DNA of 26,345 nucleotides, from positions 1-26,345 of the IMG/VR virus record IMGVR_UViG_3300050139_000116. One strand, 5' to 3'. The stretch is from a virus. The translations under genes were made by a program, and so were the position numbers. Below are positions 2,891 to 17,011 of this stretch, piece by piece. Position 1 is the first letter of the stretch, and each line of letters starts with the position of its first letter. Under the pieces are notes generated by a model. It saw only the letters and a list, made by a program, of their open reading frames with translations, was not told where the DNA came from and ran no database searches.

Positions 2891-4219
2891 TTAATGTTCA
2901 AAGAATTGAAATTCACCACCATCTTCACCAATTTCTCTATCTGGCAAATATATACCACCTAGTGATTTATTTATCTTTATTGATTCACTAGGTGCGTTTA
3001 TTGATGAATATATATGATATCCCCCTTGAAGCTTATTCTTTAAATATGAATCCCAAGCAATTGCAATCGACATAACTATATCATCATGCCCACTACTTGC
3101 ATGAAACTTTATCTTACCAGTCTTGGTATATTCAAACACAAAACTATTTAACTCAGCCTTCAATTCCTCATTATTTAATACCCTAATCTCCCTAGAACTA
3201 AAAGCTGATATCAATTGATTGATTATATCTGCCTTGCTATCTGATGTTGTTATAAATCCCTTTACATTGGGTATATTCTTTTTTATATGCTGAATAATAG
3301 GTAACCCCTGGTTATTTTCTTCGACCACCAATTCACGTGGCTTAAAGGTTGAATATACCTTCTCTATCCTTTTTATAAGCTCTGGTGCCTCTAATCCACG
3401 TGCTCTATCCATATATACCATCTCACCCTTCTGATTGAATACACTCAAAACATAATAATCTGTCAATAACGCTATATCAACTCCAATATAATAAGTTTCA
3501 CCATAAATTGGCCCATGTTGCTGATTTAATACCGCCAATTCATATATGTTATTGAATACACTATTACTATCAGTCCACTCAGCTAAGAACTCTTGTGCAA
3601 ATATTCCCTCTGGTAAAGATAACTTAAATGTCTCAATCAGAGCTTTATTTGCCAACGGATTATCATAACTATTGAACTTGAATGACTTGTATCCCTCAAT
3701 ATCCTTATTACCCCTTAACCATAATTCATAGAAAAAGTTCTTTCCTTTAGGAGTTGATATTATCAGTATCTTCTTACCAGCAACCGATAAAGACGGTAAT
3801 ATAATCTCTTCTATCGTCTCTTGCTTGATAAAGGCTGCCTCATCTAGTATAAGGAAGTTTACACTACTACCCCTAAGTGTATCCTCAGATGCTGCTGACT
3901 TAAACTCAATCCTAGCACCATTATGCAGTTCAATCATTATATTTCCCTTGGATTGAATCTTATTCTTAATCAGACCTAATGGTTCCATTATAGATACCAA
4001 AGAACGCCATACAACCTTGGATTGACTCTCGGAAGGAGTAACATACCATATAAGGGCTTTCTCGTTCTTTATAGCCCAATTAAGTGTTTGATACTTGGCT
4101 AGTGTTGATTTACCACTTTGACGACCAGCACATACTACTGTCCAGAAATTTGGTGATTTAGGTGAACAAGCTATATGAACTGCTTGTTGATGTTTATGTG
4201 GTGAATAGTTCAGTTTCAT
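2891..4219 (-). CDS. terL: Terminase large subunit
   Basis: This 442-aa packaging motor pumps DNA into the prohead and cuts the concatemer. The ATPase domain shows Walker A AGRQSGKST (31-39), Walker B LILDE (123-127, with catalytic Glu127) and a coupling motif STPKG (155-159). The C-terminal RNase H-like nuclease shows three acidic patches: Asp248 in GVDIA, Glu300 in LVVEEN, and Asp379/380 in GHDD. Length and motif order fit the Terminase_6/6C families. The start at 4219 has no Shine-Dalgarno. The gene is separated from the small subunit by a 46-aa gene and 370 nt of non-coding DNA, which is unusual because the two subunits are normally adjacent. Confidence 0.95.
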   Translation of the reverse strand: MKLNYSPHKHQQAVHIACSPKSPNFWTVVCAGRQSGKSTLAKYQTLNWAIKNEKALIWYVTPSESQSKVVWRSLVSIMEPLGLIKNKIQSKGNIMIELHNGARIEFKSAASEDTLRGSSVNFLILDEAAFIKQETIEEIILPSLSVAGKKILIISTPKGKNFFYELWLRGNKDIEGYKSFKFNSYDNPLANKALIETFKLSLPEGIFAQEFLAEWTDSNSVFNNIYELAVLNQQHGPIYGETYYIGVDIALLTDYYVLSVFNQKGEMVYMDRARGLEAPELIKRIEKVYSTFKPRELVVEENNQGLPIIQHIKKNIPNVKGFITTSDSKADIINQLISAFSSREIRVLNNEELKAELNSFVFEYTKTGKIKFHASSGHDDIVMSIAIAWDSYLKNKLQGGYHIYSSINAPSESIKINKSLGGIYLPDREIGEDGGEFQFFEH

Positions 4220-4592
4220 GGTTATTTAAGTATTTAATTGCTTCTGATAACATCTTTATGTTTATCCCAAATCTCTGTGTTTATTAGTGTTTTAATCATA
4301 TTTTAGCGACTTTTTTACTGTTTATGGTTCTTAAGGGATTACCAAACGTTTGGCTAAATCATTTACGTAATTCGCTTCGCTCTTACGGCCTTCGGCACGT
4401 AATTTCAAAATCGGCTTCGCTCTTACGGCCTTCGGCACGTAATTTCAAAATCGGCTTCGCTCTTACGGCCTTCGGGCTCGTTGTCTGAAGCTTGGCTGTT
4501 CCAAACTTGCACAAGGTCAGCTTTGAAAAGGCACCTGGTATGTACATATATCTAAATCGGTTTAGGACTCTCATCGTTACATTCAACGCTTA
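4220..4592. other. Non-coding stretch between small and large terminase genes
   Basis: No convincing gene lies here. The stretch holds a 12-bp perfect palindrome CCAAACGTTTGG (4342-4353), GC-rich 40-bp tandem repeats (4375-4475) and a 10-bp palindrome TATGTACATA near 4540. Its composition is clearly richer in GC than the surrounding genes. A 67-codon open frame across it reads mostly repeat-derived sequence and is not credible. Position between the terminase genes makes a packaging (pac/cos) site or an acquired host repeat plausible; neither can be decided here. Confidence 0.5.
4375..4475. repeat. GC-rich 40-bp tandem repeat, about 2.5 copies
   Basis: The block beginning CTTCGCTCTTACGGCCTTCG restarts at 4375, 4415 and 4455, an exact 40-bp period. 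The first two copies continue with GCACGTAATTTCAAAATCGG; the third diverges after about 21 nt. Copies are essentially identical, suggesting recent duplication or selection. Confidence 0.85.
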
Positions 4593-4733
4593 TCAAAGCC
4601 ATAACCTCAGAGCCCTAAGTAGGGTTGATATCGGCTCATACACCAGCATCTTACCTATCACATAGATAATCACTCCAAGTATTATAACTGGTATCATCAT
4701 ACATAATCCAACCATTTGAATGAACTTATACAT
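4593..4733 (-). CDS. Small single-pass membrane protein (46 aa)
   Basis: The ATG at 4733 overlaps the last 8 nt of the small terminase gene, so translation is probably coupled. The protein starts MYKFIQMVGLCMMIPVIILG and continues with a hydrophobic stretch to about residue 28, then an amphipathic tail rich in Leu and Arg. This gives one transmembrane helix. No family is recognised. Given its place in the packaging block it could be a virion or lysis accessory, but nothing in the sequence says which. The tight overlap and clear hydrophobic helix argue that it is real despite its size. Confidence 0.6.
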   Translation of the reverse strand: MYKFIQMVGLCMMIPVIILGVIIYVIGKMLVYEPISTLLRALRLWL

Positions 4734-5223
4734 TGGATTCTTCTGATGTCTTATCATCGGAGATGTTCCCCAAAGGAGTTATATCTATGAAGCTGGTATC
4801 ATCGGGGTCAAACCCGTTGAAATCAAGCTTCTGACTTATCTGTATGTTGGTCACGGTCTTATCATGGTTGTAATAGCCCATCATCTTATTGAGCATATCT
4901 AACACTTCTACCTGGTATTTGTAGTTCTTATCGGCTTTGGCTTGGTCTAATAGAACCTTTAGTTCTTGTACTACCAGGTGTTTCGGTACATGAGCCAGGT
5001 GTTTTAATTGAGATGAGAGGCTGGCAATTGATGCTTTCACTTCTGGTTGCTTTAATAATCTATAACCATTAGAAGATGCAGTACTCTTATTTTTTACCTT
5101 ATATACAGCCATATAAGCATCTGGTACTGACATATTTTTAATAAGCATATTATCAATAAATGCTTGTTGTTTATCATTAAGAACTGATTCTTTTTCTTCT
5201 ATTTTAGTTACTTTATCACTCAT
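4726..5223 (-). CDS. terS: Terminase small subunit
   Basis: A 165-aa DNA-recognition subunit of the packaging machine. The N-terminal signature LNDKQQAFIDNML (15-27), followed by a helix-turn-helix-like segment with PDAYMAVYKVKNKSTASSNG and a third helix RLLKQPEVKASI, is typical of the Terminase_2 family. The middle (about 75-115) is helical and would form the oligomerisation core. The acidic C-terminus probably contacts the large subunit. The ATG overlaps the stop of the upstream homing endonuclease gene (ATGA at 5220-5223). A second, divergent copy of this N-terminus is fused to that endonuclease. Confidence 0.88.
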   Translation of the reverse strand: MSDKVTKIEEKESVLNDKQQAFIDNMLIKNMSVPDAYMAVYKVKNKSTASSNGYRLLKQPEVKASIASLSSQLKHLAHVPKHLVVQELKVLLDQAKADKNYKYQVEVLDMLNKMMGYYNHDKTVTNIQISQKLDFNGFDPDDTSFIDITPLGNISDDKTSEESNV

Positions 5224-5903
5224 TTCAATCGATTTTTTTCTCTTGTTTCACAATATTGTTTTACTATTTCACTAGTTTCTTTTGTTAATCCTTTATTCCA
5301 AGGAGCTCTACCTATTAGTTTATGAACTTTTTTATAAGACTTTTTAAATTCTTCCAATCGTTCATCAGCTAATTCTTCAAGTGTTTTACCAGTTATATAT
5401 GGTTTTCTACCAACGTTAGCTTTTCTCATCTTATCAAGAGTTTGTTCTGAATGTGGTTTTCTATTCTTCTGTGATTGTTTCATTTTATTCCTAGTATCTA
5501 AACTAGGTTTACATCCAGAATACATACCAATTCCACCATTATCTAAGTTAACAAGTTTAAAACCCCAAGCTTTTAATTGTGATATCCAATACATTTCTAA
5601 CTGATAGGCCATATCTTCTGTTAAATCTATCTCAATTTTTTCAGAATAGAATCCATATTTATTAACATAGTTATTCCAATAACCACTTCTACCATGAATA
5701 CTATTTAATCTACTTTTAGAACCCTTTCCAACATAAAAAGGTATATTAGTTATGGGATTATAATGAATATATACATAAAATTTATTTGTCATATTGATTG
5801 TTTTGTTTTTCAAACCATCAACAATAATCTTATTAACAAAGGCTTGTTGTTTGTCAGTAAGTTTAACGGTAGCTGTTAAGCCTGTGTTAGTTGTTTCTTC
5901 CAT
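5220..5903 (-). CDS. GIY-YIG homing endonuclease with a small-terminase-like N-terminal extension
   Basis: The 227-aa product has a GIY-YIG nuclease domain (about 41-125): VYI at 44-46, YVGKG at 57-61, Arg65 and catalytic Glu103. A NUMOD3 DNA-binding motif follows (PHSEQTLDKMRKANVGRK, about 150-167). Residues 1-37 are foreign to this family. They read LTDKQQAFVNKII at positions 15-27, co-linear with the small terminase downstream (LNDKQQAFIDNML, same positions). The nuclease alone could start at the internal Met38 (ATG 5792). The element probably inserted into a small terminase gene and left part of one copy fused in frame. It spreads by cutting related phages that lack it. Confidence 0.88.
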   Translation of the reverse strand: MEETTNTGLTATVKLTDKQQAFVNKIIVDGLKNKTINMTNKFYVYIHYNPITNIPFYVGKGSKSRLNSIHGRSGYWNNYVNKYGFYSEKIEIDLTEDMAYQLEMYWISQLKAWGFKLVNLDNGGIGMYSGCKPSLDTRNKMKQSQKNRKPHSEQTLDKMRKANVGRKPYITGKTLEELADERLEEFKKSYKKVHKLIGRAPWNKGLTKETSEIVKQYCETREKNRLK

Positions 5904-5905
5904 AA

Positions 5906-6034
5906 TTATATTCTATTATCATTTTTAGTTTTAAATCCAATAAGATGTTCTTTTAGTATCATTTTAGCCTTCTTCTATTCAAGCTTTGTTATTTTATCTT
6001 GTAGATGTTTTATCTGTTTATCGATATCTTTCAT
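5906..6034 (-). pseudogene. 42-codon small gene interrupted by an in-frame TAG
   Basis: From ATG 6034 the frame reads MKDIDKQIKHLQDKITKLE, then TAG, then continues KKAKMILKEHLIGFKTKN and ends at TAA 5906, two bases before the homing endonuclease start. Upstream it begins 5 nt after the HAD gene stop. The full frame therefore fits the gap exactly, as packed phage genes do, and both halves look like one helical, Lys-rich peptide. Possibilities are a recent nonsense mutation, amber readthrough, or two tiny genes (19 aa and an 18-aa frame from the internal Met). No amber-suppressor tRNA is visible in the window. Confidence 0.45.
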
Positions 6035-6039
6035 ATTAG

Positions 6040-6393
6040 TTACTTTACGAGTATTGTGTCAATATATGGTGCATTTATGTTTATTTCTTGTAGATTGGCT
6101 AGGGTATCATCCCAGAAGACATCTATTTCGTAATGTATAAGGAATGGTGATTTATCTTGTTGTTGAGTGAATATTACGTTATTTATATCTATTCCTAATT
6201 GATTTGTTATGTTATATACTTCATCACTTCCACCTTCAATAGCTTCATCTGGGAATCTTTTGGTACATATGTATACTTGTTTGTTTAATGATAGTAGATA
6301 TGTTGCTAGGAGTTGATATTGTTTTTTATCTAGCACACCATCAAAATCGAAGCAAAAGACGTGTTTTTTGAAGTTTATATTGGTTGTCATCAT
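6040..6393 (-). CDS. HAD-superfamily phosphatase-like protein
   Basis: A 117-aa (or 116-aa, from the second Met) protein with the compact HAD core. Motif I is DFDG at 16-19 (nucleophile Asp16, acid/base Asp18), motif II a Thr in ICTKR (Thr44), a candidate motif III Lys81, and motif IV WDD (Asp95/Asp96) that would hold Mg2+. No cap domain is present, so a macromolecular or small phosphoester substrate is possible. Its short length resembles phage HAD-like phosphatases, sometimes called 5'-nucleotidase- or PNK-phosphatase-like. The substrate is unknown. Confidence 0.65.
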   Translation of the reverse strand: MMTTNINFKKHVFCFDFDGVLDKKQYQLLATYLLSLNKQVYICTKRFPDEAIEGGSDEVYNITNQLGIDINNVIFTQQQDKSPFLIHYEIDVFWDDTLANLQEININAPYIDTILVK

Positions 6394-10214: not shown

Positions 10215-10679
10215 ATGGAAAAAGTAGGAACAGAATATTCAATAGATTTAGATATCTTATCGTGTAGTGCTGGTACAGTAAATAGACACCATTGTAAAGC
10301 CTTTTATATACAATTGGGAGGTTGGATGGATATAAGTGATGTAGAAGATAAAATAGTTGTTCTGAGACGATTTAAAAGCTATTTAAACAATAGTATACGT
10401 GCTATTGCATTTGATATTCATTCTGATTCTTTATATACCTTTGTTGATATGGATATTCCAGAGAATTTAGGTCTTACCACCAATACTGGTTTTTTTAGTA
10501 TTGAGACTACTATTATGCTTAAAGAGCCTATAAAAAACTTTAGAACTGATATAGCATTAGAAGCCAATATCAAGGCATTTGGTGGATTGGTTGAGGGGAT
10601 GTTGGATAAAGTTGAGGGGATGTTGGATAAATTTGATGATATACATGTATCAAAACGTAAGTTAGCTAAGGTTATTTAA
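10215..10679 (+). CDS. Hypothetical early protein (154 aa)
   Basis: A lone plus-strand gene behind a host-type promoter, so probably expressed on entry. The body (10-110) looks like a compact alpha/beta domain, with short strands such as SIRAIAFDIHSDSLYTFVDM. Near the C-terminus a seven-residue unit VEGMLDK is repeated (residues about 126-139), encoded by a 21-bp tandem duplication. Its last 18 bases overlap the end of the convergent sigma-like gene. No family recognised; takeover or anti-host functions are typical of such positions but unproven. Confidence 0.6.
   Translation: MEKVGTEYSIDLDILSCSAGTVNRHHCKAFYIQLGGWMDISDVEDKIVVLRRFKSYLNNSIRAIAFDIHSDSLYTFVDMDIPENLGLTTNTGFFSIETTIMLKEPIKNFRTDIALEANIKAFGGLVEGMLDKVEGMLDKFDDIHVSKRKLAKVI
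10590..10631 (+). repeat. 21-bp tandem duplication
   Basis: GTTGAGGGGATGTTGGATAA plus one more A occurs twice back to back (10590-10610 and 10611-10631) without a mismatch. It adds seven residues to the C-terminus of the 154-aa gene. Perfect identity suggests a recent event. Confidence 0.9.
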
Positions 10680-11165
10680 TTCTTTATATTGTTTTTTAAG
10701 TAGTCTTTTTATTTTTTGAAGTCTAAAATCAATAACCTTTAGCGTTACACCTAATACACTGGCCATATAAGGTCTAGTCCATTTTCTCCAATAAAGGAAT
10801 CTAATTAGTGCTTTATCCTTAGGTGGTAATTCATTTATAAGTCTTTTTTTAATCTGGTCGCTTTCACCATTTTTATCTTGATATGATGCTGATATTAAAT
10901 CTAATCCATAAACTATCATTTTTACCTTTTTACCTTTTTGGCGTTCAAATATTCTAAATATCTGGTTACGTATTGTTAAAAACATATAACCCTTATATTC
11001 TTCATAATTATCACAAGGTACTTTACCTTGATTGAATTTCTCCAGGAGTTTTATAACTGCATTATTTAGGCAAGTTTGGCGTTCATGGTTATTTATCTTA
11101 TACCATCCAGGTATAACCTTGGCCAAATTTTTAATTTCTTTCTGATAATCTTGTAATGGTTTCAT
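10662..11165 (-). CDS. Sigma-70-like RNA polymerase sigma factor
   Basis: 167 aa. A region-2-like segment (30-80) includes CLNNAVIKLLEKFNQG, then YEEYKGYMFLTIRNQIFRIF and a basic patch ERQKGKK. A region-4-like segment (108-158) starts INELPPKDKALIRFLYW and has the helix-turn-helix RPYMASVLGVTLKVIDFRLQ. This is the layout of ECF-type factors without region 3. Its start lies 35 nt inside the end of the upstream sigma-like gene, so the two are made together. Its 3' end is convergent with the 154-aa gene. Confidence 0.65.
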   Translation of the reverse strand: MKPLQDYQKEIKNLAKVIPGWYKINNHERQTCLNNAVIKLLEKFNQGKVPCDNYEEYKGYMFLTIRNQIFRIFERQKGKKVKMIVYGLDLISASYQDKNGESDQIKKRLINELPPKDKALIRFLYWRKWTRPYMASVLGVTLKVIDFRLQKIKRLLKKQYKELNNLS

Positions 11166-11706
11166 AATTCTTCTTTAAAACTTTTTTAATCTTATTTAAT
11201 CTAAGTCTGATTGTTTCTCGTACAACACCATGTTTTTGACCTAATTCATTTAGAGTCATTTTTTCAAAATAATGGTCCATTATTAGGTTTCGGTCATCTT
11301 CATCAGTAAGTGCATTTATAGCCATTCTAAGACACTCTATGTGTGTTTGGTCCTCTTCTACCTCGTTGGCTATAAAGTCTTCTAAAATGGCTCCATTTTC
11401 ATCCACAGGGGTATTGGTTGATACGGTCTTGATTAGGTTTTCTTGACCTATCATTTTTGATGGTGTTCGGATTGTGTTGGAATTAAGCTTTAAAAAGCTA
11501 TTCATACGGTTTCTTATAGCAGTTGAGATATAAGCCCACCAACTGCCTTTGCCATCATATAGCTTTGAAGCATGCCAAATAGCGATATAACCTTCTTGTT
11601 CCAAGTCTTTTGTAGTTTCTTCGTCTTGGTTATAACGTTTAGCTATTTTTAGAATATATGCTCTATATTTTGTTGGGTCGAATTGGTCCCTGTTAACTAT
11701 GCTCAT
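11131..11706 (-). CDS. Sigma-70 family RNA polymerase sigma factor
   Basis: 191 aa and the clearest sigma in the window. Region 2.2 reads DLEQEGYIAIWHASKLYD (34-51). Regions 2.3-2.4 follow with SWWAYISTAIRNRMNSFLK (55-73), aromatic residues suited to melting and -10 contact. Region 4 (131-178) reads ALTDEDDRNLIMDHYF, then the helix-turn-helix TLNELGQKHGVVRETIRLRL. It would bind host core RNA polymerase and direct it to phage promoters. It is first in its minus-strand unit, 3 nt after a class A ATATTTATA element. It may therefore control its own promoter class. Confidence 0.85.
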   Translation of the reverse strand: MSIVNRDQFDPTKYRAYILKIAKRYNQDEETTKDLEQEGYIAIWHASKLYDGKGSWWAYISTAIRNRMNSFLKLNSNTIRTPSKMIGQENLIKTVSTNTPVDENGAILEDFIANEVEEDQTHIECLRMAINALTDEDDRNLIMDHYFEKMTLNELGQKHGVVRETIRLRLNKIKKVLKKNYETITRLSERN

Positions 11707-16760: not shown

Positions 16761-16940
16761 CTAATACTGTAGTAATTAATTTGTTATTTTATTACTTACT
16801 TACTTATCTTTGTTATTTATATTGATTATATTTAAACTAGTATATATTTTAATATTGCAAAATTACTCTTTTTTTCTGACAATAGCAAGTTTCTAAAGAT
16901 AAAAAATACTAATTTAGTGATAATCAATTTAATTAAATTG

Positions 16941-17011
16941 TAGCAAAAGAAGGACTCGAACCTTCAATTAAGGGTTATGAGCCCTTTGTGATACCCTTTC
17001 ACTATCTTGCA
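16941..17011 (-). tRNA. tRNA-Met (CAT), initiator-like
   Basis: 71 nt. Acceptor TGCAAGA/TTTTGCT (6 of 7 paired), D stem GTGA/TCAC, anticodon stem AAGGG/CCCTT with loop CTCATAA, variable loop AATT, T stem GAAGG/CCTTC with loop TTCGAGT, discriminator A, no encoded CCA. The first acceptor pair is a T-T mismatch, and the anticodon stem ends in three G-C pairs next to the loop. Both are hallmarks of initiator tRNA. The D-stem pair T11-A24 is more elongator-like. An Ile tRNA with modified CAU anticodon is the other option. It lies 6 nt downstream of the second holin-like gene. Confidence 0.85.

Follow-up and report, generated by a model that had tools for sequence, protein, structure and literature searches.

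The locus described here raises the question of how a GIY-YIG nuclease ORF came to start with a second copy of a small-terminase N-terminus, directly ahead of a complete small-terminase gene. Homing endonuclease genes spare their carrier by residing in introns, inteins or intergenic gaps, or by splitting a protein that is able to reassemble. The stretch of DNA that we analyzed (the window; 26,345 nucleotides) is a 26-kb virus record from IMG/VR, in which the relevant minus-strand genes follow one another in the order HAD-like gene (6040-6393), GIY-YIG ORF (5220-5903; 227 aa), terS (4726-5223; 165 aa) and terL (2891-4219). The HAD-like gene has a weak 5'-nucleotidase match that falls under the Pfam cut-off. 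TerS is an SF6/SPP1-type small terminase with an N-terminal helix-turn-helix (HTH) domain (PF03592, E 2.2e-9 in a profile search); it also matches PDB entry 3zqp by profile and the SF6 DNA-binding domain (2cmp/4zc3) by fold, and its HTH helices span residues 17-57 in the predicted model. The large terminase TerL (Terminase_6N, E 8e-19) served as the query for finding relatives. A perfect 40-bp tandem repeat of 2.5 copies (4374-4475) lies in the GC-rich gap between terS and terL. Elsewhere, the window contains a tRNA-Met gene (anticodon CAT; 16940-17011) and two overlapping, consecutive sigma-70-like genes (10662-11706), the second of which matches Sigma70 regions 2 and 4.

The core of the GIY-YIG ORF (residues 38-227; 5223-5792, minus strand) matches PHROG 314, annotated as homing endonuclease (E 1.3e-18 in a profile search), and carries a NUMOD3 motif. 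A comparison with PDB recovered the solved GIY-YIG protein 9u75 (E 5e-8), and the Pfam GIY-YIG family itself scored under its cut-off (E 0.78). Residues Y45, Y57-x-G59, R65, E103 and N119 are invariant in nine nuclease sequences, so the catalytic residues are intact, with the Arg, Glu and Asn having the roles described for I-TevI (PMC2988022). By these sequence criteria, the protein has both the GIY-YIG fold signature and the catalytic Arg, Glu and Asn. Most of its GIY-YIG relatives begin with MTNKFYVY, MTKFYVY or MFYVY, which is equivalent to residue 38 of the window protein, at position 5792. Residues 1-37 therefore look like an addition to the nuclease, and the ATG at 5792 was probably its ancestral start. 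The best phage homolog of the nuclease, from Flavobacterium phage FpV4, is 52% identical over 39% of the query. In FpV4 (L172, 1690-2910), this nuclease family seemingly lies inside an intron of a helicase gene, and the nuclease ORF opens with residues (KQINPV) that echo the start of the downstream exon (DDKQINPV), with 18 of 19 nucleotides alike by eye.

The added residues (the head; 5793-5903, minus strand) resemble the N-terminus of TerS, which is encoded 680 nt away. A sequence-only reading of this DNA had aligned residues 1-33 of the two proteins without gaps and had placed L-x-DKQQAF at positions 15-22 in both. The ORFs, the register and the motif are as it described, with 8 of the 33 positions identical (M1, L15 and D17-F22), but the real similarity is confined to about residues 14-31, where both proteins carry LxDKQQAF and additional similar residues. 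No shuffle reached the best-segment score of 46, whether in the same register (20,000 shuffles) or in any register (1,500 shuffles). At the DNA level, the previously reported count of 29 identical positions of 35 is correct in this register, although the two coordinate ranges quoted for it are offset from each other by one base; elsewhere in the window, the best match is 24 of 35. The head also matches the TerS of a relative, L176 (KLTDKQQAFV...GL versus KITDKQKAFV...GL), with a tblastn E of 3.8e-5 and a score that none of 1,000 shuffles reached, and no match to this TerS was obtained with residues 38-77 of the GIY-YIG protein, which we used as a control. The small-terminase profile PHROG 51 aligned to the head in the same register as to TerS, with a weak score (E 0.39), and joining the head to terS from codon 34 onward raised the family-profile score from 62 to 67 bits. 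Together, these analyses confirm that the resemblance exceeds chance and that the duplicate N-terminus is real.

Searches with TerS, the GIY-YIG protein or TerL alone recovered no close relatives: 50,697 phage records yielded none for TerS, and IMG/VR yielded none that was close. The relatives that we compared were reached by TerL searches, as a group at 40-47% identity, and the window TerL is 46-47% identical to those of L176, L177 and L275. In both L176 and L177, a homolog of the HAD-like gene (40-42% identical) is followed within a few bases by a single terS, then by terL and the next gene, with no nuclease in between; L176 also keeps a 427-aa gene ahead of the HAD gene. The presence of the nuclease is thus patchy, since L176 and L177, whose terminases are related and whose genes follow the same order, are without it at that place. 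This supports the earlier proposal that the nuclease landed in a terminase gene, and each of these two phages has one TerS N-terminus, the opposite of the paired N-termini that the proposal had named as evidence against itself. Because terS directly trails the HAD gene in L176 and L177, the head in the window occupies the place of the terS start. In L275, the interval from the 427-aa gene to terS, occupied by the HAD gene in L176, contains an HNH-like nuclease (1518-1985; under the Pfam cut-off).

Codon style bears on which of the two N-termini is the resident one. At synonymous third positions, the fraction C/(C+T) stands at 0.44 for the HAD gene and 0.33 for the head, drops to 0.07 across the nuclease and to 0.00 (0/28) across TerS codons 1-66, and rises to 0.57 (29/51) across TerS codons 67-165; C- or T-ending codons are few in the head (21) and in TerS codons 1-66 (28). 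Splitting TerS at codon 66 gives p = 6e-8, which was matched by none of 3,000 codon shuffles, and among 23 other genes no split did better than p = 0.008; the test was chosen after the GC-skew profile had been seen, so these p-values are somewhat optimistic. A two-state path across the HAD, GIY-YIG and TerS genes changes only at GIY-YIG codon 37 and TerS codon 67. The first of these boundaries lies no more than about six codons from where the TerS homology stops and coincides with the start of the nuclease homologs, neither of which was an input to the path calculation. The GC and GC-skew profile has a similar block. A likelihood model of codon usage, with the nuclease core as its training set, proved too noisy and gave no support for the block; the synonymous C/T test took its place.

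The simplest reading of these sequence patterns is a single foreign tract of about 770 bp (5026-5795, minus strand), made up of the nuclease and codons 1-66 of a donor terS. TerS codons 1-66 (5026-5223) would then probably be donor-derived and codons 67-165 (4729-5025) probably resident. The first 66 codons span the whole HTH domain, and the join falls just behind the domain border. The TerS C-terminal half is nearest to the TerS proteins of L275 and L176. The 3' part of terS is itself unusual for this phage in being GC-rich (41%), and it could be the odd half. A tree of TerS N-termini gave no resolved placement for the window or for L178, a second locus described below.

The sequence-only reading had assigned the opposite polarity, with a foreign N-terminal piece left in front and a complete terminase behind it, kept translated by an ATGA junction. 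The intact terS frame and the ATGA overlap, in which the nuclease stop and the terS start share positions 5220-5223 (minus strand), are present as described, but the polarity is probably reversed. We read the front piece as resident because the head, the HAD gene and TerS codons 67-165 have a common codon style, and it is TerS codons 1-66 that look foreign. If the nuclease had instead landed just upstream of an unchanged terS, the head would be a stray or captured terminase fragment. The complete terS reading frame fits such an event, and so does the similarity of the two N-termini to other TerS proteins, which is about equal (22 versus 30 of 55) and favors neither as the resident. A stray fragment, however, would not be expected behind the HAD gene at the position of the L176 and L177 terS start, nor to have resident-style codons while TerS codons 1-66 share the style of the nuclease, and we regard this explanation as unlikely.

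We consider it reasonably probable that a GIY-YIG gene invaded terS near codon 32 together with the 5' end of a donor terS, and that this rebuilt a donor-resident hybrid gene. In this event, the nuclease would have cut the conserved 5' region of an uninterrupted terS, and repair of the break from the donor would have installed the nuclease and the donor terS start, either carried along or by co-conversion. In the rebuilt gene, donor codons 1 to about 66, with the HTH domain, would run in frame into the 3' part of the resident terS. The stub displaced from the resident 5' end would keep its ATG and read in frame into the nuclease, ribosomes finishing the nuclease could restart on the rebuilt terS at the ATGA, and the new 5' sequence could shield this gene from the nuclease. 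As resident codons of about 33 to 66 are gone, the event would be an insertion with replacement. Replacement of this kind is what co-conversion would be expected to produce during repair of a double-strand break from a related donor. The proposal builds on the observed duplicate N-terminus, insert-free relatives, coinciding boundaries, hybrid codon style and intact catalytic residues, from which we infer that uninterrupted terS is cut, that the break is repaired from a donor, that the fused protein is made and that the hybrid TerS works. No donor with both the nuclease and the foreign terS 5' end was found.

A comparable layout occurs in a second locus. We compared 96 loci with a TerS N-terminal match, and two TerS N-terminal copies were present only in the window and in L178 (the same as L301), apart from L309. 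The TerS frame of L309 (1059-1439) is broken by one in-frame stop, which could reflect a pseudogene, recoding or a sequencing error. In L178, an ORF at 4871-5983 fuses a full TerS HTH domain (PF03592, E 1.6e-9) to a T5orf172 nuclease domain (E 2.4e-10); three bases past the stop codon of the fusion come a complete TerS (E 2e-19) and then terL. Over 66 residues, the two TerS N-termini of L178 share 44% identity. The fused one belongs to the 'NGxNATxAYxSVYK' type, as in L176 and L177, and that of the complete TerS shows the shorter 'LD-MNAS..A-GYS' form found in mainstream terminases. L179 and L182, which are 57-63% identical to L178 in TerL, each show only one TerS match. Because T5orf172 and the window nuclease belong to different GIY-YIG subfamilies, the layout probably had two separate origins. 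The C-terminal half of the complete L178 TerS is closest to TerS proteins whose N-termini are more like the fused than the present copy, and the phages holding those proteins have no matching TerL. This comparison is only suggestive of a hybrid origin for the L178 TerS, and its codon style has no block like that of the window. No annotated terS lies alongside T5orf172 in the annotated phages KP13-27, P7869 and RHph_I3_18, and no phage record covers at least 80% of the fusion protein of the window or of L178 in one place.

The L178 fusion also speaks for the possibility that a terminase N-terminus was recruited as a working domain, providing the nuclease with DNA binding or a contact to the packaging machine. 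Both fusions are in frame, L178 contributes a complete HTH domain, and T5orf172 nucleases are described as commonly bearing modular DNA-binding domains (PMC10448857). The head in the window, however, is predicted to form only one helix (residues 17-33), corresponding to HTH helix 1, followed by a low-confidence linker in the model (mean pLDDT 58), and it contains no recognition helix. Judged from this model, DNA binding by the head is very unlikely, and the suggestion that the fused segment binds terminase partners finds no support in a segment with a single helix of the domain. Recruitment is more plausible for L178 than for the window, where we find it improbable.

Internal duplication of the terS 5' end, followed by entry of the nuclease between the copies, would account for the shared register and the 29/35 DNA identity of the two copies, but they differ outside the conserved motif and in codon style, which makes this origin highly improbable. 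A group I intron carrying the nuclease inside terS, as the apparent intron location of the FpV4 homolog might suggest, was rejected as scarcely credible, since no Rfam intron family matched the window at E up to 1 (a weak argument, as the presumed FpV4 intron also escaped this search), the coding pieces on the two sides overlap rather than join, and the following exon restarts at codon 1, such that splicing would give no normal TerS.

The proposed insertion with replacement has its closest known counterpart in fungal mitochondria, where mobile ORFs carry in foreign gene ends and thereby create gene hybrids, first in Allomyces macrogynus atp6 and later in four genes of Glomus sp. (atp6, atp9, cox2 and nad3), one of them with a GIY-YIG enzyme (PMC3630166). 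As in those hybrids, a nuclease ORF in the window lies in an essential gene with what are probably a foreign end, a hybrid gene and a remnant of the native end, and two copies of one gene end, here the TerS N-termini, adjoin the nuclease ORF. In the mitochondrial cases (PMC3630166), the 3' (C-terminal) end is replaced, whereas here it would be the 5' (N-terminal) end, and in a phage. The nuclease of the window would also be read from a captured resident start, and its donor and mobility are putative. The window locus is a variant of the mitochondrial type and not a member of it, because the end concerned is the N-terminus.

In T4-type phages, the homing genes mobE in nrdA of Aeh1 and mobA in T4 gene 60 split their host genes, and the products reassemble (PMC2988022). 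There, too, an essential phage gene is interrupted and its function must survive, but as two polypeptide halves, whereas in the window the insert is followed by a single complete gene that is probably a hybrid. GIY-YIG and T5orf172 homing genes of the free-standing kind are described as adjoining essential genes, overlapping neighboring ORFs and co-converting their flanks (PMC2988022, PMC10448857), and a terminase gene occurs in 35% of the T5orf172 neighborhoods surveyed (PMC10448857). Unlike the free-standing genes in the passages considered, none of which is seen fused to a duplicated gene start, the window nuclease has such a fusion.

We found no phage case of a carried-in 5' gene end in the open-access literature. 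To our knowledge, a replacement gene end brought by a homing gene is known only from fungal mitochondria. If confirmed in phages, the event proposed here would provide another route into the coding region of an essential gene, as a mirror image at the 5' end, in which the nuclease captures the start codon of the interrupted gene and the DNA-binding domain of a packaging protein is replaced. Loss of the cut site and any change in packaging specificity would then become testable questions. Given the HNH-like nuclease of L275, the neighborhood of terS may be a repeated target, or hotspot, for nuclease genes. We further offer, as a speculation that we think more doubtful than not, that phage terS is a recurrent homing target for at least two subfamilies of GIY-YIG-type nucleases, which exchange the TerS DNA-binding domain each time. 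If this were true, homing would be a route for swapping the part of the terminase that recognizes packaging DNA while the gene stays intact.
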